A stretch of 32,971 nucleotides of DNA, taken from positions 1 to 32,971 of the forward strand of contig JAPVVG010000266.1 of the NCBI GenBank assembly GCA_028571455.1, given 5' to 3'. Within the stretch, counting starts at the first letter, position 1. Every line of letters starts with the position of its first letter. The notes below the pieces were generated by a model. That model did not search any database. It worked only from the letters and a program-made list of their open reading frames with translations, and had not been told where the DNA came from. Source of the DNA: Desulfobacteraceae bacterium (lineage in GTDB: Bacteria; Desulfobacterota; Desulfobacteria; Desulfobacterales; ETH-SRB1). The translations under genes were made by a program, and so were the position numbers. Below, piece by piece: positions 15,003 to 31,548 of this stretch.

Positions 15003-15145
15003 GAGACCTTTGCAAAACGCCCCCTTTTGCCCAATTACTGCGTCAGGCTCAAATTTTAATCCTCGAAATATTCAATATATTCCTGCGGTTAAAATTTCTG
15101 CCTTCCTTGTACTTGAACAAAATTGAACATTTTTCAAAGGTCCCG
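15003..15145. mobile_element. 142-bp MITE-like element, copy 1
   Basis: Left end GAGACCTTTGCAAAACGCCC, right end TTTTTCAAAGGTCCCG: inverted termini of about 13 bp. The first 56 nt match copy 2 at 16935 exactly and the rest differs by point changes. No coding capacity is apparent. The left end is next to the start of DUF134-2 (minus strand). The following 178 bp (15146-15323) to the DUF89 start is AT-rich leader with nothing clearly recognisable. Confidence 0.85.
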
Positions 15146-15323
15146 TTATGAGCTTGTGCCTATAATACAGCTCTTTTTATGGAATAATCAAGCATTTTTT
15201 TGAGCATACGCTTAATTAAAGCTCCCCGCAGTCCACTTGACCCTTGACCGTTCCAACATAATCCGATATTGATTTTTTCAGTTTCCAAATTTTTCTTAAA
15301 TACGATTGCTTAGAGGATTGAAA

Positions 15324-16934: not shown

Positions 16935-17076
16935 GAGACCTTTGCAAAACGCCCCCTTTTGCCCAATTACTGCGTCAGGCTCAAATTTTAGGCCTCGAAA
17001 TACTCAATGTATTCCTACGTTTAAAATTTTCGCCTTCCTTGAACTTGAACAAAATTGGGCATTTTTCAAAGGTCTC
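16935..17076. mobile_element. 142-bp MITE-like element, copy 2
   Basis: Same element and same orientation as at 15003, with better-preserved termini: GAGACCTTTGCAAAA at 16935 and TTTTTCAAAGGTCTC ending at 17076. It again lies directly upstream of a minus-strand gene. The 169 bp between it and the BrnT remnant hold AT-rich sequence without a recognised gene. Confidence 0.87.
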
Positions 17077-17245
17077 ATTCTAAAGAAAAGCTCAAGTTTT
17101 GGATTTCATGGGACTTGCGCAACCTGTATGTGCATTTGCAAAGAGTTTGGTAAAATTCAGGTAATATGTTAAACAGTTGTTACTTTTTTATCAAGAGAAA
17201 ATATCGCATCCTTTTTAAAAAGCTTGACTTGTATATTATTGTCAT

Positions 17246-17410
17246 ATGCAATATAAATTAATGGAAAAGAAATTTGAACATTTTACAGGATTCCAGTGGG
17301 GCTAAGGAAATATCGATAAAAATCTCATTAAGCATGATGTCGAAAACTGGGAATGTGAACAGGTATTTTTTAACAGGTCTCTTCTTGTTCTCGATGATCC
17401 AAAGCAGTGA
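17246..17410 (+). pseudogene. BrnT-like toxin gene, decayed
   Basis: Translation from ATG 17246 reads EHFTGFQWG, a TAA stop (17303-17305), then GNIDKNLIKHDVENWECEQV and FFNRSLLVLDDPKQ before a TGA stop (17408-17410). This is the beginning and middle of BrnT, the RNase toxin of BrnTA modules (family pattern FxWDxxKxxxNxxKHxV and VFFNRPLLVLDD). Two stops disrupt it, the C-terminal half is missing, and no BrnA antitoxin follows, so it is dead. A TTGACT lies at 17224-17229 upstream. It is the relic of a toxin-antitoxin module. Confidence 0.75.
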
Positions 17411-17484
17411 AAGAACATTGCGGTTATACCTTTCAACTATAAAATTCTAATAATCTGATAACCACATTAACAAGAGGCATTACA

Positions 17485-17796
17485 ATGAACATACTATTTA
17501 TTATTTCTACAGACGATGCTGAAACAGCATATAATGCTATGAGGTTAGCCAATGTGGCAGTCAAAAAAGATGATGATGTAAGTGTGTTCATGCTTGGAAA
17601 AGGAGTTCTTTTTGAACAAATCAGCAATGAAGAGTTTAATGTAATGGAACAGATTGACCAATTTGAAGGTGATTTTTACGTCTGAGGGGTGTGTATGAAA
17701 TCCCACGGTCTGGAGGGATCAAGCTCATGTCCTATTGGTTGGATGGATGATCTTTATGAATTATCTATGGAGGCGGATAAAGTGTTTACCTTTTGA
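17485..17796 (+). CDS. DsrE-like selenoprotein candidate (in-frame TGA at 17683-17685)
   Basis: Read straight, this ORF ends after 66 residues in DQFEGDFYV. If the TGA is read as selenocysteine, the frame continues as U-GVCMKSHGLEGSSSCPIGW and then MDDLYELSMEADKVFTF, ending at TGA 17794-17796, for 103 residues. Both halves match the small DsrE/DsrF-like sulfur-relay family: start NILFIISTDDAETAYNAMRL, middle LGKGVLFEQISNEEFNVMEQ, and C-terminal LCP..DLYE..DKVxTF pattern. The TGA falls exactly at the first Cys of the family's CGxC, giving Sec67-Gly-Val-Cys70. DsrE-like selenoproteins have been reported in deltaproteobacteria. The function would be redox or persulfide transfer in the cytoplasm. 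The alternative is a nonsense-mutated pseudogene, but the intact downstream frame and the hairpin argue against it. Confidence 0.8.
17700..17719 (+). promoter_or_regulatory. SECIS-like hairpin downstream of the recoded TGA
   Basis: The stem ATCCC (17700-17704) pairs with GGGAT (17715-17719). An inner C-G pair (17706/17713) closes the loop GGTCTG (17707-17712). The GGTC loop is the feature bound by SelB in the E. coli fdhF SECIS, and here it starts 21 nt after the TGA, near the 18 nt seen in fdhF. Outer bases ATGA and TCAT may extend the stem. Judged by eye; no folding energy was computed. Confidence 0.65.
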
Positions 17797-17821
17797 TATC
17801 ATTTTCAACAAGGAGAATATT

Positions 17822-18763
17822 GTGGAGGAGCTGAAAAAAAGCATTGTCATACCGATTGATGGTTCAAAAAATTCGTTGAGATCATTGGATTATCTTAATC
17901 TTATGTTTGGCCCGGACCATAAAATGCATGTCCATCTTCTGTATGTCATGCCCTCTTTGCCGCCGCTGTTAACAGACAATAAAACAATGGACAGGAAGAT
18001 CAGGTCAGCGCTGGCGTCAGTTAAAAGAAAGAATAAAGAAATAGCCGAGCGGGTTTTAGCAGAAGCCAGGAAAATTCTTAGTGATAAAGGTTTTAATGAA
18101 GAGAATATCAAACCGCATTACCAGCAATGTGAAAGTACTATTGCCAGAGATATTTATTATTGGGCAAAAAATAAAAGGGCGGATACTATTCTGATGTCCA
18201 GGCGTGGGCAAACCGATTTTAAACCGTTTATCATGGGTGAAATTTCCACCAGACTTGTGGAGTACTGCAGGGATTGCCCTTTGTGGATAGTGGGGGGCGG
18301 TGTTCGTTCAAAAAAGGCGCTCATTGCCGTGGATAGTTCCGAAAATGCCCTGAGAGCTGTTGACCATGCCGGTTTTATGCTTTCCGAAACCGATTGCAAG
18401 GCAACCATTTTTTATACCATGAGACATTTGAGACGCTTTGTTCCTCTGGAGGCCCTTGAAGAAGCTCCTGATCTCGAAGAGTTCTGGAAGAACAAGGCAG
18501 GTCAACAGATTGCTCCATATATGAAAAAGGCTAAAGAAATACTTCTCGATGCAGGGCTTTCCGAGGATCAGATCGCCACAAAGGTAATAGACGGCAGCCG
18601 GTCTGCTGCTGACGATATTCTCAAAGAAGCGCGTAAAAACGGTTTTGGAACAATTGTATTGGGACGCAGGGGTGTTTCGAAAATAAAGGAGCTTTTCATG
18701 GGCAGTGTAACCAGAAAGATTTTGAACAGCTTTAGCGGGTTGACTCTCTGGATCGTTCAATAA
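17822..18763 (+). CDS. Tandem universal stress protein (two UspA domains)
   Basis: A 313-residue protein with two UspA domains, about 4-155 and 160-313. Each has the N-terminal strand (IVIPIDGSKNS; ALIAVDSSENA) and the C-terminal nucleotide-binding signature (MSRRGQTDFKPFIMGEISTR; LGRRGVSKIKELFMGSVTRK), the G-x2-G-x9-G-S/T pattern of ATP-binding USPs. The start is GTG 17822 with AAGGAG at 6 nt; the open frame upstream belongs to the DsrE-like region in another frame. The stop lies 1 bp before the ATG of the antiporter gene, so the two are coupled. USPs often regulate transporters allosterically, which fits this pairing (inference). Confidence 0.92.
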   Translation: MEELKKSIVIPIDGSKNSLRSLDYLNLMFGPDHKMHVHLLYVMPSLPPLLTDNKTMDRKIRSALASVKRKNKEIAERVLAEARKILSDKGFNEENIKPHYQQCESTIARDIYYWAKNKRADTILMSRRGQTDFKPFIMGEISTRLVEYCRDCPLWIVGGGVRSKKALIAVDSSENALRAVDHAGFMLSETDCKATIFYTMRHLRRFVPLEALEEAPDLEEFWKNKAGQQIAPYMKKAKEILLDAGLSEDQIATKVIDGSRSAADDILKEARKNGFGTIVLGRRGVSKIKELFMGSVTRKILNSFSGLTLWIVQ

Positions 18764-21511: not shown

Positions 21512-21577
21512 AATTAATGTTCTCCTTTAACTCAATGTCATTAACTTAATGGCCGTTCTTTAAAGTAGTCCCCTTAA

Positions 21578-21810
21578 AAGATGAACATCCAACATCGAAC
21601 ATTGAACGTCGAACATCGAATAATGATGTCGCTCCGCTCTTTAAAATTATTTTAAAATAGAACAAAAAAATCAATACCGAACCTTGAATGACTATTTCTG
21701 TTTCTTTTCAGATGTTCATCTTTTTCCATTCAGCATTCGATGTTCGACATTCATCTCTTTTCCCATTCAACGTTCGATGTTGGACGTTCGATGTTCGATG
21801 TTCATTTTTT
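21578..21810. repeat. Class C word-palindrome between ktrB and ktrA
   Basis: Left arm AACATCCAACATCGAACATT and AACGTCGAACATCGAATAAT (21585-21622); right arm ATTCAACGTTCGATGTTGGA and CGTTCGATGTTCGATGTTCA (21767-21803). Between them GATGTCGCTCCGCTC plus an AT-rich stretch recurs in opposite orientation at 26085-26130. The rest of the 308-bp gap (21512-21819) is AT-rich and I see no gene. The repeat separates two genes normally cotranscribed. Confidence 0.8.
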
Positions 21811-21819
21811 TTCAGTCCT

Positions 21820-23187
21820 TTAACTTACGACTATATCCGCTTCCGGATAAGTAAATGAAGCCGGTTTTAGGCGCCCCACAAGAGAATATGCTATGGCAAG
21901 GGGCCCTGCACGTCCGATAAACATCGAAAGAATGGTCACCACTTTTCCTGCAAAGCTCAGCTCCGGGGTTATCCCTGTTGAAAGTCCAACTGTTCCCAGA
22001 GCGGAGACTACCTGGAAAAGAATATCCAGAGGAGCTGATTTTTCTATATACATGAGTATTCCGGTGGCTGTAAAAACCCACAGCATTGCCATGATGATTA
22101 TGGCAAAAACTTTTCGCATGGTTTCCTGTGGAATCCGGTTTTTAAAAATGGAAACATCATTTCTACCGGAAAGGTAGGAACGTAGAAATGCCAGAAGCAA
22201 GACAAAGCTGACAGTTTTAATCCCGCCACCGGTGCCGCCTGGTGAAGCCCCTACAAACATGAGAAAGAGGATAATCCAGAGACTGGATGTATGCATATTT
22301 CCGATTTCGATTGTATTGAAGCCGGTGGTTGTTGAGGCGGAGACGGCCTGGAAAATGGAGGTCATGAAAGGTCGAAGAAGAATTGTTGAATCCTGAGTTC
22401 CGGCTTCCGCAATCCATATAACTCCTGCTCCGCCTAATATTAGAAGAACCGTGCTGGAGAGAACTATTTTTGTGTGTGTCGATAATCTTATGGCTTGTTT
22501 CATAAACCGTTTTTCAGGCAGGAGAACAAAAAATTCGTACAGGCAAAAAAAACCAATTCCACCGCCTAAGGCGAGAAGGCTGATTATGAGGTTGATAGAA
22601 AAAAATTCATTATAAGCTTTCATGCTATCGGGAAAAAGGGAGAATCCAGCAGTACAAAAGGCAGACACTGAGTGAAAAGCGGCCAGGTAGAAAGCTTTTC
22701 CGCACGGGAAAAATCGCATCCAGGAAAGTCCAAGGAAAATGGTTCCGGCCAGCTCGAATAAAAGGGTGAAAAGAAGGATAATTTTTGCAAAGCGGATCAT
22801 GTCAACAGATGTTGGCCGGGTTATTGATTGTCTCAGCAAAGTTTGACCGCTGATAGACAGCCTGCCGCCTATGCCTAAAACTACAAAGGTTATTATTATC
22901 ATATATCCCAGACCGCCGATTTGAAAAAGCGCAAGGATAATAATTTGCCCGAAGCGGGAATAGAATGATCCTGTGTCCACAACTACCAATCCTGTTGTAG
23001 TGACAGCGGAACTGGCTGTAAACAGGGCATCCAGAAATGATTGACCATATCCGCTGGAACAGGCAGCCGGCAAGGTTAGAAGAAAAGCGCCGATAAAAAT
23101 CAGAAAAAGAAATCCAGCTACAATTAGCTGCATGGATGTAGGTTTTTTAAATAGTCCTGCCATCTTGAACCGCAACAGCGAGCGCAT
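21820..23187 (-). CDS. ktrB: KtrB/TrkH-type potassium transporter
   Basis: Membrane-embedded K+ uptake subunit of 455 residues with four M1-P-M2 repeats. The four pore loops are visible: TTTGLVVVDTGSFYSR, SAFCTAGFSLFPD, SASTTTGFNTIEIG and SALGTVGLSTGITP, each with the filter glycine. MFVGASPGGTGGGIKT is the conserved membrane loop of this family. It pairs with ktrA downstream. K+ uptake through Ktr is often driven or stimulated by Na+. The start is uncertain: the first eight residues (MRSLLRFK) are encoded by a dispersed repeat shared with the end of atpC, and Met9 (23163) gives the more usual N-terminus. Neither start has a good Shine-Dalgarno. Confidence 0.92.
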   Translation of the reverse strand: MRSLLRFKMAGLFKKPTSMQLIVAGFLFLIFIGAFLLTLPAACSSGYGQSFLDALFTASSAVTTTGLVVVDTGSFYSRFGQIIILALFQIGGLGYMIIITFVVLGIGGRLSISGQTLLRQSITRPTSVDMIRFAKIILLFTLLFELAGTIFLGLSWMRFFPCGKAFYLAAFHSVSAFCTAGFSLFPDSMKAYNEFFSINLIISLLALGGGIGFFCLYEFFVLLPEKRFMKQAIRLSTHTKIVLSSTVLLILGGAGVIWIAEAGTQDSTILLRPFMTSIFQAVSASTTTGFNTIEIGNMHTSSLWIILFLMFVGASPGGTGGGIKTVSFVLLLAFLRSYLSGRNDVSIFKNRIPQETMRKVFAIIIMAMLWVFTATGILMYIEKSAPLDILFQVVSALGTVGLSTGITPELSFAGKVVTILSMFIGRAGPLAIAYSLVGRLKPASFTYPEADIVVS

Positions 23188-23379: not shown

Positions 23380-25195
<1,816 letters not shown>

Positions 25196-25253
25196 GAATT
25201 ATATTATAATTTTTTGTGTCTTAGTGCCTTAGTGGCCGAACTATTACAAAAAA

Positions 25254-25658
25254 ATGAAGCTTAAGGTTTTGCTCCCTACAGAGGTTCTTGTTGACGAAGA
25301 GGTTGTCAAGGTGATTGCCGAGGCTGAAAACGGTTCTTTTTGCCTTTTGCCCCGTCATGTTGATTTTGTGGCTGTCATTGTTCCCGGTATTTTTTGTTTT
25401 GTAACACCCGATCTCGTCGAACAGTTTTATGCTGTTGATGAAGGTATCCTGATCAAATGCGGCCATGAGGTTATGCTTTCCATTAGAAATGCCGTGCGGG
25501 GTCCTGATCTTGGAGTGTTGAAAAAAACTGTTCAAAAACAATTTGTTGAGCTTGAAGATCGGGAAAAAATGTCGCGTTCTGCATTAGCCAGGCTCGAAGC
25601 CGGTTTTATCAGGCGCTTTATGGATCTTGAACCGCAACAGCGAGCGTATTCCCCGTAG
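25254..25658 (+). CDS. atpC: N-type ATPase F1 epsilon subunit
   Basis: A 134-residue central-stalk subunit. Residues 1-85 form the beta-sandwich domain (LKVLLPTEVLVDEEVVKVIA, then GSFCLLPRHVDFVAVIVPGI); residues 95-125 are a helical hairpin. The order beta-epsilon at the 5' end of the operon is the N-ATPase arrangement. The start ATG 25254 has no Shine-Dalgarno (ACTATTACAAAAAA precedes). The last eleven residues, DLEPQQRAYSP, and the TAG stop are encoded within a dispersed repeat also present at 23162, so the natural C-terminus has probably been replaced. Epsilon usually couples gamma rotation to the c-ring and can inhibit ATP hydrolysis. Confidence 0.93.
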   Translation: MKLKVLLPTEVLVDEEVVKVIAEAENGSFCLLPRHVDFVAVIVPGIFCFVTPDLVEQFYAVDEGILIKCGHEVMLSIRNAVRGPDLGVLKKTVQKQFVELEDREKMSRSALARLEAGFIRRFMDLEPQQRAYSP

Positions 25659-25760
25659 TCCCGCTTTAGCGGGACGGGGAATGCGAGCGAATCCAAAAAT
25701 AGCAAACTTCCTTACGGTCGAAGATTACCTGCAGCTTGCTGCATGGAGCTTCAAAAACAG
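25623..25760. repeat. Second copy of the ktrB-linked element, overlapping the end of atpC
   Basis: GATCTTGAACCGCAACAGCG then AGCGTATTCCCCGTAG matches 23162-23196. The hairpin ATTCCCC-GTA-GTCCCGC, TTTA, GCGGGAC-GGGGAAT follows, with the atpC stop codon TAG in the bulge. After it TTCCTTACGGTCGAAGATTA matches 23237-23256. Copies differ in the hairpin sequence but keep a hairpin at each place. Confidence 0.8.
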
Positions 25761-25784
25761 GGGTTGACAGCATAAGCACTGAAA

Positions 25785-26165
25785 AAAATGAACATCGAAC
25801 GGATTAAAAGATGAACATCGAACATCGAACGTCCAACATCGAATGTTGAATGGGAAAAGATGAAGAAACAGAGGTCAGAGGTCGGAGATCGGAGGTCAGA
25901 AAAACAGCAACTAAATATCCCTGAACCATAATTTAGAATATCGAACAAGGAATAATGAATTTCGAATGTCGAAGGAAAAAACTTCATAATTCGACTAGGC
26001 GTGTTTCGATATTTGATATTCGCATTTTGCTAAGAACCTCTGAACACTGAACCTTTATTTTTCATTTGGTGTTTGTTTTTTTATTCGATTTTTAAATAAT
26101 TTGAGGAGCGGAGCGACATCATTATTCGACGTTCGATGTTCAATGTTCGATGTTGGACGTTCATC
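25785..26165. repeat. Class C and D words in the 533-bp atpC-atpQ gap
   Basis: AACATCGAACATCGAACGTC and CCAACATCGAATGTTGAATG (25813-25851), then AGGTCAGAGGTCGGAGATCG (25871-25890). A run of TCGAA-rich text follows to 25990. The far arm is TTCGACGTTCGATGTTCAAT and GTTCGATGTTGGACGTTCAT (26124-26164). Near 26104 GAGCGGAGCGACATCATTAT mirrors 21619-21640. No gene is seen in the whole gap (25659-26191). It is the largest interruption of the ATPase operon. Confidence 0.8.
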
Positions 26166-26191
26166 TTTCAAAACAATCCGGTATGGCATAA

Positions 26192-26509
26192 ATGCAACCT
26201 GTGAATAAAAAGCATCGACAGTCAGGTGATAAATTTAGCGAAACAGTGGGAGCCAAAGAGGTTCGCAAGATCAAAGCGCGTCGTGAGAAGGAGAGTGTCG
26301 TCTGGTTTGGACTGGGCATGTTCGGCGTCCTTGGATGGTCGGTAGTTATTGCCACCTTGCTTGGCATCGGCCTGGGCGTCTGGATAGATATGAAATGGCC
26401 GAGCCGCTATTCCTGGACATTGATGCTTCTCATCATCGGCCTTATTTTAGGTTGTTTAAACGCATGGTTATGGATAACATCCGAGCGAAAGATGATTAAT
26501 AAAGAGTAA
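26192..26509 (+). CDS. atpQ: N-ATPase accessory membrane subunit AtpQ
   Basis: A 105-residue protein characteristic of N-ATPase operons (ATPase gene 1-like, related to AtpI). A basic N-terminal 38 residues is followed by two TM helices: VVWFGLGMFGVLGWSVVIAT with LLGIGLGVWIDM, and WTLMLLIIGLILGCLNAWLW. AtpI-like proteins help c-ring assembly or Mg2+ supply; AtpQ is thought to act similarly. It is followed by atpR, the other N-ATPase-specific gene. ATG 26192 lacks a strong Shine-Dalgarno. The TAA stop (26507-26509) is part of the class A repeat terminus TAATTACTCAGGTGGATAGG. Confidence 0.92.
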   Translation: MQPVNKKHRQSGDKFSETVGAKEVRKIKARREKESVVWFGLGMFGVLGWSVVIATLLGIGLGVWIDMKWPSRYSWTLMLLIIGLILGCLNAWLWITSERKMINKE

Positions 26510-26725
26510 TTACTCAGGTGGATAGGCTGAAGGCTGAAGACTGTTAGGAAAAAGCAAAAATACGGAGCATTTTGAAGCCATGTTTGGTGCAAGAATCAGA
26601 CCCGCCCGCCTCGCCTGATCTCGCAATGGCGGGCAGGTATTTCCGCCAAAGTACGGCAATCGTGCTCTTCTGACCCCTTCAGCCTTCAGTCTAAACAGCT
26701 TCAGCCTGACTACGTGAGTAGTCAC
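26507..26725. repeat. Class A element, atpQ-atpR gap
   Basis: The left terminus TAATTACTCAGGTGGATAGG (26507-26526) contains the atpQ stop codon. GCTGAAGGCTGAAGACTGTT words follow. The right side reads CTTCAGCCTTCAGTCTAAAC and AGCCTGACTACGTGAGTAGT, its imperfect complement. Inside lie GC-rich CCCGCCCGCCTCGCC text (26600-26614) and TTCCGCCAAAG text (26640-26650). This is the best example here of the element with both inverted ends. Confidence 0.82.
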
Positions 26726-26744
26726 GATAAAGAGACAAAAAAGA

Positions 26745-27056
26745 ATGAGTGAAGTTGTAATCCTCATAACGGCTTTTGCCGCAGGCATAGGTCTCGGTAC
26801 ATTTTACTTCGGAGGCCTGTGGCTGACTGTTAAGCGGCTTCCTAAGGTCAGAAGGCCGGCGCTTTTGAGTATGTGCAGCTTTTTTGGACGCCTTGGAATA
26901 ATTCTTTTTGGATTTTATCTCATCATGGACGGTCATTGGGAACGGATGATAGTCTGTATGATCGGTTTTTTAGTAATGCGGGGAATTCTTGTGCGTGTAT
27001 GGGGGCCGGTGAGAGGCCGGAGGTCGGAGGTCAGAGGTCGGAAGTCGGAGGTCTGA
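26745..27056 (+). CDS. atpR: N-ATPase accessory membrane subunit AtpR
   Basis: A 103-residue protein of the N-ATPase AtpR family (F1/F0 ATPase subunit 2-like) with three predicted TM helices: about 3-27 (VVILITAFAAGIGLGTFYFG), 38-61 and 66-82. Family members carry conserved Arg residues in the membrane thought to interact with the c-ring carboxylates during assembly; RLGIILFGFYLIMDG and FLVMRG show candidate arginines. The last fifteen residues, VRGRRSEVRGRKSEV, are the translation of a class D repeat, so the original stop has been lost and the protein extended by a basic tail. The ATG has only a weak AAAGAGA upstream. Confidence 0.9.
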   Translation: MSEVVILITAFAAGIGLGTFYFGGLWLTVKRLPKVRRPALLSMCSFFGRLGIILFGFYLIMDGHWERMIVCMIGFLVMRGILVRVWGPVRGRRSEVRGRKSEV

Positions 27057-27163
27057 AGTCAGAGGTCGGAGAACCAGCAACGAGGAACCAGCAACGAGGA
27101 ACCAGCGCAGTAAGCAGTAGGCAGTAGGCAGTAAGCAGCAACGAGTAACGAGAAACGAGAAAT
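27008..27163. repeat. Class D and class G word repeats across the atpR end and the atpR-atpB gap
   Basis: GAGGCCGGAGGTCGGAGGTC words (27013 onwards) begin inside atpR and continue past its stop. Then come AACCAGCAACGAGGAACCAG words, AGTAGGCAGTAGGCAGTAAG words, and AACGAGTAACGAGAAACGAG immediately before the atpB ATG. Three vocabularies in about 150 bp. The run leaves atpB without a Shine-Dalgarno. Confidence 0.85.
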
Positions 27164-27865
27164 ATGCATATAACTCCTGATTCAATAATTTTATTTCAAT
27201 TGGGGCCTGTTTCACTTAATGCGACCATACTGTTTACATGGTGCATAATGGCGTTGATGACTGTCGGGTCCTGGCTTGTGACCAGAAAGCTTTCCTCAGC
27301 AACACGGCTGTCTCGATGGCAGAACCTTCTTGAAGTACTGGTAACCGGCATAAGGGATGAGATTCGTGAGATCAGCGGACAGGATCCGGGCAGGTACCTG
27401 TCCTTTGTGGGCACACTCTTTTTATTTATTGCGGTTTCAAATCTTTTAAGCATCATCCCCGGATATAACCCGCCGACCGGGTCACTTTCAACAACGGCCG
27501 CGCTTGCTGTTTGTGTGTTTATTGCGGTTCCCATATACGGCATTACTCAAAAAGGTCTATCTTATTTTAAACAATATACCAAACCTTCGGTATTGATGTT
27601 GCCATTTAATATTATAGGCGAGATATCACGCACGATTGCATTGGCTATGCGCCTTTTTGGAAATATAATGAGCGGCACGATAATTGCCGCCATCCTGCTT
27701 TCCATTACGCCCCTTATATTTCCGGTTATAATGCAGGCTTTTGGATTATTAATTGGATTGATCCAGGCATACATATTTGCAATTTTGGCGATGGTATACA
27801 TTGCGGCAGGCGCTCGTGTGCGGCAAAACAAGAGTGGTCGAGTAGTCGAGTCGTCGAGTAGTTAA
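27164..27865 (+). CDS. atpB: N-type ATPase Fo subunit a
   Basis: A 233-residue stator channel subunit with about five or six TM helices. The essential arginine lies in the helix reading ISRTIALAMRLFGNIMSG (residues about 150-168); RLFGN is the invariant core. Earlier LLSIIPGYNPPTGSLSTTAA is the loop typical of shorter archaeal or N-type a subunits. With the c-ring it forms the ion path; the c-subunit ligands suggest Na+. The last ten residues, SGRVVESSSS, are the translation of a class F repeat (GTCGAGTAGTCGAGTCGTCG), so the C-terminus is repeat-derived. The start codon is directly preceded by AACGAGAAACGAGAAAT with no proper ribosome-binding site. Confidence 0.94.
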   Translation: MHITPDSIILFQLGPVSLNATILFTWCIMALMTVGSWLVTRKLSSATRLSRWQNLLEVLVTGIRDEIREISGQDPGRYLSFVGTLFLFIAVSNLLSIIPGYNPPTGSLSTTAALAVCVFIAVPIYGITQKGLSYFKQYTKPSVLMLPFNIIGEISRTIALAMRLFGNIMSGTIIAAILLSITPLIFPVIMQAFGLLIGLIQAYIFAILAMVYIAAGARVRQNKSGRVVESSSS

Positions 27866-27902
27866 CCACTCGACCATTTTCCCACTCGACCACTCGACCA
27901 TG
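27834..27902. repeat. Class F word hairpin, atpB-atpE junction
   Basis: GTGGTCGAGTAGTCGAGTCG is followed by ACCACTCGACCATTTTCCCA and CTCGACCACTCGACCATG, giving a hairpin of GTCGAGT words against ACTCGAC words. It encodes the C-terminal tail of AtpB and ends just before the atpE ribosome-binding site. It lies at a place where differential expression of subunit c is often set. Confidence 0.85.
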
Positions 27903-27932
27903 TCCAAGCTATTACGAAAGGAGATGTATAAA

Positions 27933-28211
27933 ATGGATAACATCGGTATTATTGGAGCTATATCCATTCTTGCGTCGGGACTGACCATCGGCATCGGTTC
28001 GATCGGTCCTGCGCTTGGAGAGGGGCGGGCATTGGCCCAGGCTTTGAGCTCTATTGCACAACAGCCTGATGAGGCCAATACAATTACACGCACCCTTTTT
28101 GTGGGTTTGGCAATGGTGGAATCAACGGCTATTTACTGTTTTGTAGTATCCATGATTCTAATTTTTGCAAACCCGTTCTGGAATTATGTAGTATCTAAAG
28201 CCGGGGGATAA
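27933..28211 (+). CDS. atpE: N-type ATPase Fo subunit c with Na+-binding signature
   Basis: A 92-residue two-helix proteolipid forming the rotor ring. Helix 1 has GPALGEG with Glu30; helix 2 has MVESTAIY with Glu63, Ser64, Thr65 and Tyr68. The EST..Y set matches the Na+ ligands of the Ilyobacter c-ring, and the helix 1 Glu replaces its Gln, giving the two-carboxylate site described for N-ATPases. I chose ATG 27933 because GAAAGGAG lies 9 nt upstream. An upstream ATG at 27900 falls in a repeat, and the family N-terminus is short. It has the clearest Shine-Dalgarno in the operon, as suits the most abundant subunit. It is followed by atpF after 3 bp. Confidence 0.94.
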   Translation: MDNIGIIGAISILASGLTIGIGSIGPALGEGRALAQALSSIAQQPDEANTITRTLFVGLAMVESTAIYCFVVSMILIFANPFWNYVVSKAGG

Positions 28212-28214
28212 TCC

Positions 28215-28988
28215 GTGCTAATCGATTGGTTTACAGTAATTGCTCAGATAATAAATTTTCTGGTGCTTGTTTATCTTCTTAAGCGTTTTCTTTACGGCCC
28301 CATTATTAAGGCCATGGACAAGCGACAGGAGAAAATCGCTCTTCGTCTGGAAGGGGCGCGCAAAAAAAAGCAGGAGGCCGAGCAGGAGGCCGAGCTTTTT
28401 CTTCAAAAAAACAGGGAGTTTGATACCAGGCATGAAGAGATGCTTTCTCAGATCAAAAAAGAGGCTGAAGCCCGCAGAGTAGAGCTTATAAAGGAGGCTC
28501 GCAGTCAGGTTGATGCCGATATGGCCAGATGGTATGGGGCTATCCAGAAGGAGAAAGAAACCTTTCTCCAGGATATTCGCAGGCGTACGGTGGGGCACAC
28601 CTGCGCCATTGCTCGCAGGGCAATAAAGGAGTTGTCGAACGAGGATCTTGAGAATCGCATTACGAGCATTTTTATCGAGCGTCTCCAGAACATAGACAGC
28701 AATGAGCGAGAAGCGCTTGTGCAGGCCATTAAACATTCTATGGAAGGAATTCGAGTAAACAGCTCCTTTGAAATTCCAGGGGAATCGGCAAAAGAAATTG
28801 TGCGACTTTTACAAAATCTGACAACCGATCCCATTGCAGTGCGGTTTGAGATTTTACCGGAGCTTATCTGCGGCATTGAGTTAAAACTTCATGGCCGCAA
28901 AATTTCCTGGAATATAGCCGATTATCTGGAATCATTTGAGGAAAGTATGCGCGCAGCAATTGAGGCAAAAGGGATAAAAGAAACGTAA
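28215..28988 (+). CDS. atpF: N-type ATPase Fo subunit b (long form)
   Basis: A 257-residue peripheral-stalk subunit starting at GTG 28215. A single N-terminal TM helix (DWFTVIAQIINFLVLVYLLK) leads into a long charged coiled coil (about 30-120). A C-terminal domain of about 130 residues follows that ordinary b subunits (about 160 residues) lack. N-ATPase operons have no delta gene, and this extension is thought to take over delta's contact with F1. It follows atpE closely, and the two are probably translated together. Its TAA stop (28986-28988) lies within a class A repeat terminus (TAACTGCTCAGATAGATAGG). Confidence 0.92.
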   Translation: MLIDWFTVIAQIINFLVLVYLLKRFLYGPIIKAMDKRQEKIALRLEGARKKKQEAEQEAELFLQKNREFDTRHEEMLSQIKKEAEARRVELIKEARSQVDADMARWYGAIQKEKETFLQDIRRRTVGHTCAIARRAIKELSNEDLENRITSIFIERLQNIDSNEREALVQAIKHSMEGIRVNSSFEIPGESAKEIVRLLQNLTTDPIAVRFEILPELICGIELKLHGRKISWNIADYLESFEESMRAAIEAKGIKET

Positions 28989-29160
28989 CTGCTCAGATAG
29001 ATAGGCTGTAGGCATTTAGGCTGTAGGCTGTTAGTTTTTGTATTCAGGTTGTTTAGGCTGTAGGCTAAAGGCTGTTAGTTATAAGCTGAAAGCCTAACTG
29101 CCTACAGCCTAACAGCCTACAGCCTAAATGCTTACAGCCTAAATACCTACAGCCTAAACA
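28985..29160. repeat. Class A element, atpF-atpA gap
   Basis: Starts GTAACTGCTCAGATAGATAG, containing the atpF stop codon, then AGGCTGTAGGCATTTAGGCT words. It goes through ATTCAGGTTGTTTAGGCTGT (as at 571) and GTTATAAGCTGAAAGCCTAA (as at 600), and ends with CTACAGCCTAACAGCCTACA words up to the atpA start. Two nested palindromes seem joined. No Shine-Dalgarno for atpA is left. Confidence 0.85.
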
Positions 29161-29162
29161 AA

Positions 29163-30686
29163 ATGACTGAGAATAATACTACATCTAAATCCTTTCTTGA
29201 TGACACGTTCATGCTGTTTGATCAATCTCTTGAAAGACACGCATATGAGCTGAAAGGGAGGGAGGTTGGAATTGTGACCTATGTTGGCCAGGGAATTGCC
29301 CGCGTTGATGGTTTGTCCGGAGTTAAATCCGAGGAAGTGATCCGGTTCCCCGGCAACATCCCCGGCATGGTTTTTAATATTGATATTTCAGAGGTGGGCG
29401 TTATTCTTTTCGGCGAAAGCGATGAGATAGGAGCAGGTTCCGAGGTATACAGAACAGGACAGGTTTTGAATGTTCCGGTTGGCGATGCGCTGATAGGACG
29501 CTTTGTGGACCCCATGGGACGCCCTCTGGACAATCTTGGTCCTGTGAAGACGTCGGAGCGGCGTCCTGTTGAACGCGAGGCTCCTGAGATTATGGACAGG
29601 GCTCCTGTTTTCGTGCCGTTACAGACAGGCCTGAAGGTTGTTGATACCTTAATTCCGATAGGGCGCGGGCAACGAGAGCTCATTCTTGGCGACCGGCAAA
29701 CAGGCAAGACAGCTATTGCACTTGATACGATAATTAATCAAAAGGGAAAAGATGTGTTATGCGTTTATTGCGCTATTGGACAGAGAAGTTCCTCTGTGGC
29801 AAAACTTATTAATGAGCTTCGAAAGCACGGCGCCATGGATTACTCCATCGTCGTGGTCGCAGAAGGGGAAAGCACTCCTGGAATGCAGTTTATTGCGCCT
29901 TATGCAGCCACGTCAATGGCGGAGTTTTTTATGGAACAGGGAAGGGATGTATTAATTATATACGACGACCTCACGCGTCACGCCAGGGCTTATCGTGAGC
30001 TTTCACTTCTGTTGCGCAGACCTCCCGGCAGGGAGGCTTTTCCTGGCGATATTTTCTATATCCATTCACGGCTCCTTGAACGCTCAACCCATCTTCGAGA
30101 AGAGCTTGGAGGCGGCTCATTGAGCGCTATGCCTATTGTTGAAACAGAGGCGCAAAACATATCCGCATATATTCCGACAAACATCATCTCGATCACCGAT
30201 GGTCAGATCTATCTTTCACCTGACCTTTTTCAAAAGGGTGTGCTTCCGGCAGTAGATGTTGGAAAATCTGTGTCAAGGGTGGGCGGCAAAACACAATTGG
30301 CCTCATATCGCGCAGTTGCCGGTGATTTGCGTCTTTCTTACTCGCAGTTTGAAGAACTTGAGACATTCTCCCGTTTTGCCACGCGTCTGGACGAGGAAAC
30401 ACGCAAAAGGCTGGAGCGGGGGAGACGGGTTAGAGAAATTCTAAAGCAGCCTCAATATCAAACTATGCCGGTTGCAGAGCAGATAGCTGTGTTTGTGGCA
30501 GTAAATAAAGGTGTCTTTGATGAATTTCCCCTTGATCGGATTCCACAGGTTGAACGGCTTATACGCAAGGAGGTCACGGCACATCTGTCCCATCTTTGCG
30601 AACGGATTGAAGCCGGCGGTCAACTAAAGGATGAGGATCAAGAGGCTATCTTGAGCATTGCCCGGAAAGCTGTTGAAAATGCTTGA
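29163..30686 (+). CDS. atpA: N-type ATPase F1 alpha subunit
   Basis: Non-catalytic nucleotide-binding subunit of the F1 head, 507 residues. An N-terminal beta-barrel (about 25-95) precedes the P-loop [14 protein letters not shown] near residue 177, then Walker [21 protein letters not shown] and the C-terminal helical domain. [20 protein letters not shown] near 385 is the conserved alpha motif. The extreme N-terminus ([20 protein letters not shown]) lacks the usual delta-binding helix pattern, as expected in an operon without a delta gene. The start is preceded by CAGCCTAAACAAA, with no ribosome-binding site. The stop overlaps the atpG start by 8 bp. Confidence 0.96.
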
Positions 30687-31548
30687 ATTGGTGAAACGTA
30701 AAATCAAGAGCGCTGAAGATTTGCTGTCTGTCGTGAAAACAATGAAGGTTCTTGCGGCCATAAACATTCAGCAGTATGAGAAGGCGGTTGAGTCCCTTGG
30801 CAAATACAATCGGTCTGTTGAATTCGGATTGCAGGCCGTTCTAAAACATAGGCCAGGTGGAATCCAGATAGTCAAACCTGTTTTAAAACAAAGACTCGGC
30901 GCCATTGTTTTTGGCTCTGACCAGGGCATGGTTGGTCAGTTTAATGAAGTGATAGCTCATTATGCAGTTGAAGAAATAAATACACTCAAGGTAAAACAGG
31001 AAAACCGTGCGGTTATAGCTGTTGGGCTGCGAGTTATGTCCCGTCTTGAAGAGGCCGGCCAGCCTGTTGAAGACTGCCTTTCTTTGCCAGGCTCAATAAC
31101 CGCTATTACGCCGATGGTGCAGGATATTGCGCTGAAGATGGAGGCGTGGCGCTTTGAGCGGAAAATCGATCAGATCGTTATTTTTTATAACAGAACGGTT
31201 GGCGCATCTTATCGCCCCCATAGGCTCCAGTTGCTGCCGGTTGATCATAAATGGTTTCAAGAGCTGAAAAGCAGACCATGGCCATCGCGCTCTTTGCCGC
31301 TTTTTACTATGGATTGGAACCGGCTGTTTTCATCATTGATCCGCCAACATCTGTTTGCATCGGTTTTTCAAGCTTTTGCCGAATCCATGTGCAGCGAAAA
31401 TGCCAGCCGTCTTGCATCCATGCAGGCGGCTGAAAGAAATATTGAAGAGCGTCTGGACGAGCTGAACTTTCAATTTCACCAGGAAAGACACACCTCTATT
31501 ACAGAAGAACTATTAGATATTGTTGCAGGTTTTGAGGCGTTAAAATGA
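30679..31548 (+). CDS. atpG: N-type ATPase F1 gamma subunit
   Basis: The rotating central shaft, 289 residues. The N-terminal helix [20 protein letters not shown] and [16 protein letters not shown] correspond to the family's coiled-coil foot; the C-terminal helix [20 protein letters not shown] with [20 protein letters not shown] completes the shaft. The central Rossmann-like domain is present but diverged, as in other N-ATPase gammas. ATG 30679 lies inside the end of atpA (ATGCTTGA overlap), so translation is coupled to alpha. A longer in-frame start at 30658 is less likely. It is the last gene of the operon. Confidence 0.93.

Follow-up and report, generated by a model that had tools for sequence, protein, structure and literature searches.

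The 32,971-nucleotide stretch of a Desulfobacteraceae genome analyzed here (contig JAPVVG010000266.1; hereafter the window) almost certainly holds, at positions 17485-17796 of the forward strand, a working gene for a DsrE/DsrF-like selenoprotein, judging from its read-through translation, its full-length match to the Pfam DsrE family and the conservation seen in a 26-row alignment. The frame opens with an ATG at 17485, meets an in-frame TGA at 17683-17685 (codon 67), continues for 36 codons and ends at a terminal TGA at 17794-17796. When codon 67 is read through, the product has 103 residues before the stop and reads MNILF...GDFYV-U-GVC-MKSHGLEGSSSCPIGWMDDLYELSMEADKVFTF, with the motif Sec67-Gly-Val-Cys70 and an invariant Cys82; otherwise it has 66 residues. 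A likely ribosome-binding region, AACAAGAGGCA, can be picked out by inspection at 17470-17480 on the same strand.

An earlier note on this DNA had proposed that the TGA is read through into a DsrE-like tail of 36 codons, and its coordinates for the gene, the TGA and the hairpin discussed below proved exact when the sequence was read again. The read-through product matches the Pfam DsrE profile (PF02635) from end to end (positions 1-116 of 116) with 42.4 bits, as against 24.0 bits and partial coverage only for the 66-residue product, the gathering cut-off being 22.7 bits. The same profile is matched by all 26 homologues tested, and the alignment retains a conserved tail after the TGA, including the invariant residues C70, C82, P83 and W86-E92. 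Ordinary gene calling does end at the TGA, as the note had expected, and would shorten the protein to 66 residues despite its relatives in many genera; correct annotation yields a clear Sec/Cys pair for a sulfur-handling family.

Conservation of the in-frame TGA

The distribution of the TGA among relatives is revealing of its meaning. When one genome per species was scanned with peptide patterns that avoid codon 67, 79 relatives were returned, and at 74 of these loci the motif surrounding the codon is readable. TGA occupies codon 67 in 73 of the 74 and is followed by the conserved 36-residue tail; the conservation of codon and downstream frame on which the earlier note had let its proposal depend is therefore present, and the reading of codon 67 as Sec is strongly supported by these comparisons. 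The sole exception (L059) has TGG at codon 67 and, besides, an in-frame TAG at codon 39, so that this copy looks damaged, misassembled or misread. A further in-frame TAG lies within an otherwise intact DsrE-like gene at codon 13 of L051, and damage, sequencing error and a pyrrolysine reading are all candidate explanations of the two TAG codons. Among the carriers is a named strain, Desulfoferrobacter suflitae DRH4 (L027), which makes the function of the protein testable in cultured bacteria.

Sampling with a family profile, first in 395 genomes of the phylum and then in 193 genomes of the order, extends this picture to more distant homologues. Every full-length match above 120 bits has one in-frame TGA, except for one copy with TAG. 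Homologues scoring at about 90-113 bits are free of in-frame stops, and those that were read have Cys at the column of codon 67, in sequences such as ACGTCLKL, ACKVCLKL and ACRACLKI, with Cys70 and Cys82 retained; copies of the Cys form are present in L181-L184, L190 and L194. The TGA of the present gene does therefore align with the family Cys, as had been claimed, and in these alignments the Sec forms and the Cys homologues make up a classical Sec/Cys pair. Close relatives have no Cys copies, which suggests a need for selenium in the chemistry of the protein. In DsrE relatives that score lower still, TGA reappears within different motifs (AUGSCLRSRG, AUGKCMGVHG, GUKKALKMHG), so that several DsrE superfamily branches contain Sec.

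Some of the distant relatives carry DsrE-like genes as tandem pairs. One Sec copy and one Cys copy are paired in L182, L183 and L193, and both copies are of the Sec form in L185. The Sec copies of L182 and L193 (GUKKALKMHG and GUKKALGMHG) have no Cys partner at position +3.

The hairpin after the TGA and the Sec machinery

A hairpin at 17700-17719 on the forward strand, 21 nt past the UGA, is read as a bacterial SECIS element from its pairing counts, its covariation and the frozen third positions of codons 72-79. More specifically, its stem pairs 17700-17706 with 17713-17719, with one A.A mismatch in this copy, and its 6-nt loop (17707-17712) reads GGUCUG; both the GGTC in the loop and the SECIS-like distance are exactly as the earlier note had described them. 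The published model calls for a loop of 3-9 nt with a G in its first two positions, a UGA distance of 16-37 nt, a stem of 4-16 bp and an MFE of at most -7.5 (PMC13188914). The GGUCUG loop, the 21-nt distance and the stem of 5 bp, a mismatch and 1 bp all agree with it, as does the MFE of a 48-nt stretch (-10.6); whether the energy limit is reached varies with the piece chosen for folding, the isolated 27-nt hairpin giving only -6.4.

The folding energy of this copy taken alone does not exceed that of shuffled sequences (z 0.15 and -0.61). A single sequence is therefore insufficient, and the SECIS claim is carried by comparison. Codons 72-79 are nearly invariant at the DNA level, while the flanking codons vary at their third positions. 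At conserved residues, the normalised synonymous entropy amounts to 0.22 for the 7 codons inside the hairpin and to 0.86 for the 56 outside it, with a Mann-Whitney p of 1e-5 that serves as a guide only, as the 69 gapless genes compared are related sequences. In a diverse set of 30 sequences, 90.5% of the cells of the stem (18-24 with 31-37, counted from the TGA) are paired, and stem covariation is 0.264 compared with 0.139 +/- 0.016 after shuffling. Changes on both sides occur at three stem pairs, in 12 cells where 2.8 are expected from shuffles; the compensatory pairs run from U-A to G-C (5) or A-U (2), from A-U to G-C (2) and from C-G to U-A (2). Sliding the stem partner by 1-3 columns lowers pairing to 26-50%, a control that somewhat favours the stem because the structure was drawn from the same sequences. 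L072 and L073, the two copies that diverge most, have IRGQTG in place of SHGLEG, yet all seven pairs of their helix form and the loop keeps its GGUC. Thus, of the hairpin stability that the earlier note had made a test of its proposal, covariation and the synonymous freeze speak in favour and the folding energy of this one copy does not. An Rfam scan around the gene gave no match at a permissive threshold, and the bacterial SECIS family RF00031 has no matches in this genome and none in the control genomes either, so that its silence carries no weight.

The search of the genome for selA, selB, selC and selD, which had been proposed as a check, found the first, second and fourth present and the third begun at a contig edge. 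SelA (531.6 bits, contig C70) and SelB (372 bits, contig C71) are intact. The selD gene is in two pieces at the ends of contigs C181 and C152 (the latter piece being L090, G000:C152:1-417), and the N-terminus of SelD reads GSGUASK, so that SelD is itself a Sec protein. Read in reverse, contig C159 starts with GGAAGTGCGCAGCTCACTGGTGGGGCT, the first 27 (5'-terminal) bases of selC, the tRNA-Sec gene, and then reaches its edge. This piece is identical to the corresponding bases in two congeners and a same-family relative (L102, L108, L105). A complete tRNA-Sec gene was not found in the assembly. Among the six congeners sampled, four have selC in a high-scoring common form, a fifth has a tRNA-Sec call of lower score (L110) and in the last no call exceeds the cut-off. 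The missing remainder of selC is most plausibly due to a break in the assembly rather than to absence. The best Rfam match for tRNA-Sec, on contig C82, was rejected, as ARAGORN identifies it as tRNA-Trp.

These observations bear on two other ways of reading the TGA. Were the gene a decayed DsrE gene in which a nonsense mutation had created a true stop, the 66-residue gene call would be correct, and the absence of the gene from congeners and its position near a repeat would be in keeping with decay. The same TGA nevertheless stands in 73 of the 74 homologues spanning the site, the tail after it keeps its invariant residues, and the synonymous freeze is confined to the hairpin. That TGA and tail are kept in many genera refutes a nonsense mutation, which is left with a vanishingly small probability. 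It is also highly improbable that the UGA is read as some other residue, through Trp or Cys reassignment or stop-codon leakage, in place of SECIS-driven Sec insertion. The TGG of L059 is the one observation in its favour, in a copy that appears damaged or misread by its TAG; the gene itself uses TGA as an ordinary stop, the Cys homologues and the SECIS signal indicate Sec, and the genome holds Sec machinery. Counted against the favoured reading as a whole are the shortness of the hairpin, its A.A mismatch and its stability no greater than that of shuffles, together with the lack of an Rfam match, of a complete selC in the assembly and, for the most part, of conserved neighbourhoods elsewhere.

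Predicted fold, chemistry and known relatives

On its PF02635 match and its predicted fold, the protein is a member of the DsrE/DsrF-like family. The AlphaFold2 model (pLDDT 94, pTM 0.86) has DsrE-like structures as its top Foldseek matches (3pnx, 3mc3, 2qs7); a sequence profile search of solved structures gave no match. Residue 67 of the model lies where a strand (63-66) gives way to a helix (68-73), and a UxxC pair placed at the start of a helix suits chemistry of the thiol-disulfide redox type.

In the proposed mechanism, SelB with Sec-tRNA would bind the hairpin 21 nt past the UGA and selenocysteine would be inserted at codon 67, giving a protein of 103 residues with Sec67-Gly-Val-Cys70 at the helix start of a DsrE fold. 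Most likely, Sec67 would then attack a disulfide, persulfide or polysulfide, Cys70 would resolve the product and Cys82 could be a third participant, which would make the protein a small carrier, either of selenol redox type or of sulfane sulfur. Selenol/thiol redox or sulfane-sulfur transfer through Sec67 and Cys70, as proposed by analogy with the DsrE family, has roughly even chances of being the actual chemistry, and the sequence cannot decide between a redox and a sulfur-carrier role. An unlikely extension is that this is a nearly Sec-only DsrE subfamily (Sec67, Cys70, Cys82), horizontally mobile among sulfate-reducer families with its SECIS built in, that would carry sulfane sulfur or selenium on Sec in perselenide form. 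To our knowledge, no DsrE protein has such perselenide-type chemistry.

DsrE-like UxxC selenoproteins were reported from the Sargasso Sea set in 2005 (PMC1088965), entered a 2006 list for Desulfovibrio vulgaris (PMC1794560) and appear in a 2026 review (PMC13188914) with WP_014524487.1, in agreement with the earlier note, which had stated that such proteins are known from deltaproteobacteria. The present protein shares with these known PF02635 selenoproteins the DsrE domain, Sec as the first residue of UxxC and a SECIS just past the UGA, a likeness of domain and motif that may extend to the subfamily, whose marks here are the invariant Cys82 and W86-M-D-D-L-Y-E. The locus is thus a well-supported addition to the DsrE-like UxxC selenoproteins and no new kind.

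The DsrE-family fold is also shared with the DsrEFH and TusBCD sulfurtransferases. In DsrEFH, Cys78 of DsrE carries sulfane sulfur and hands it over to DsrC (PMC3397948). Those systems hold sulfur on a conserved Cys within a hetero-hexamer whose three paralogous subunits are encoded together, whereas the present protein is small, stands alone and has a UxxC pair: the window shows neither DsrF/DsrH nor TusBC neighbours, and searching the genome at the protein level gave no further copy of the subfamily. YedF (TIGR03527) has a C-terminal DsrE-like domain with CGxC and a link to selenium use (PMC5322559). Although the redox motif and the selenium link are alike, the present protein consists of the DsrE domain only, lacking the SirA/TusA-like N-terminal domain, and scores 14.1 bits against the NCBIfam YedF model, whose cut-off is 110.

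Genomic setting and origin of the gene

The dsrE-like gene is followed on the same strand, 25 nt past its stop, by a universal stress protein gene (usp, 17822-18763; Pfam Usp 101.5 bits) with a GTG start and its own AAGGAG just upstream. Upstream neighbours are a gene of the metallo-beta-lactamase fold and a 145-bp repeat (16935-17079). Homology to relatives restarts at about 17805-17812, just before usp, with 91-92% identity, and in the five relatives examined the sequence ahead of usp holds no remnant of the dsrE-like gene. By DNA match the gene is absent from all six congeners, three of which are also negative by protein profile, and other sampled genomes of the same family are negative as well. 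Its closest relatives, at up to 89% DNA identity, are in genomes that a separate scan had found. The segment 17080-17805 is A+T-rich, with a GC content of 34% as compared with 44% for the window. The simplest reading of these comparisons is that this species probably acquired the gene recently by horizontal transfer and that its position upstream of usp came about by chance; loss of the gene in congeners is a possible alternative.

The note had seen novelty in a linkage of the gene to usp and antiporter genes, and such a unit, perhaps serving stress or pH homeostasis, would be compatible with the selenoprotein reading. The 25-nt distance on one strand and the occurrence of usp followed by an Na+/H+ antiporter gene in several relatives are in its favour, and transcription may perhaps run from the dsrE-like gene on into usp. 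However, the other DsrE loci that were examined, about 105 in number, have neither usp nor the antiporter nearby, and in congeners usp is present without the dsrE-like gene and with unrelated sequence upstream. A functional unit is thus quite improbable, and the adjacency is probably a local accident. Neighbourhoods of DsrE-like loci in other genomes are scattered and mostly unconserved; an ArsR-type regulator near 12 of about 74 loci and a thioredoxin-reductase-like protein near 10 are weak hints, the families having been assigned by eye.

Several other elements of the window were noted. A possible broken toxin-antitoxin gene lies upstream of the dsrE-like gene at 17250-17450; the toxin relic that the note had placed there is unconfirmed, a Pfam search of one piece of the region having given no match. 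The 145-bp repeat is present twice, at 15003-15147 and 16935-17079, in copies 91% alike, of which the second has imperfect 33-bp inverted ends, TGAGACCTTTGCAAAA...TTTTTCAAAGGTCTCA; many more copies are found in the genome and in congeners, and the element is MITE-like. An ATP synthase operon at 23626-31548, identified in the ORF list by eye, is arranged as beta, epsilon, small membrane proteins, a, c, b, alpha, gamma and in this resembles N-type ATPases. Its atpD (64-70% identity in other carriers) was dropped as a yardstick of horizontal transfer because the operon order suggests an N-type ATPase, possibly itself mobile. A different interspersed repeat, of which the genus holds many copies, lies at 21574-21820 between potassium-uptake-like genes.
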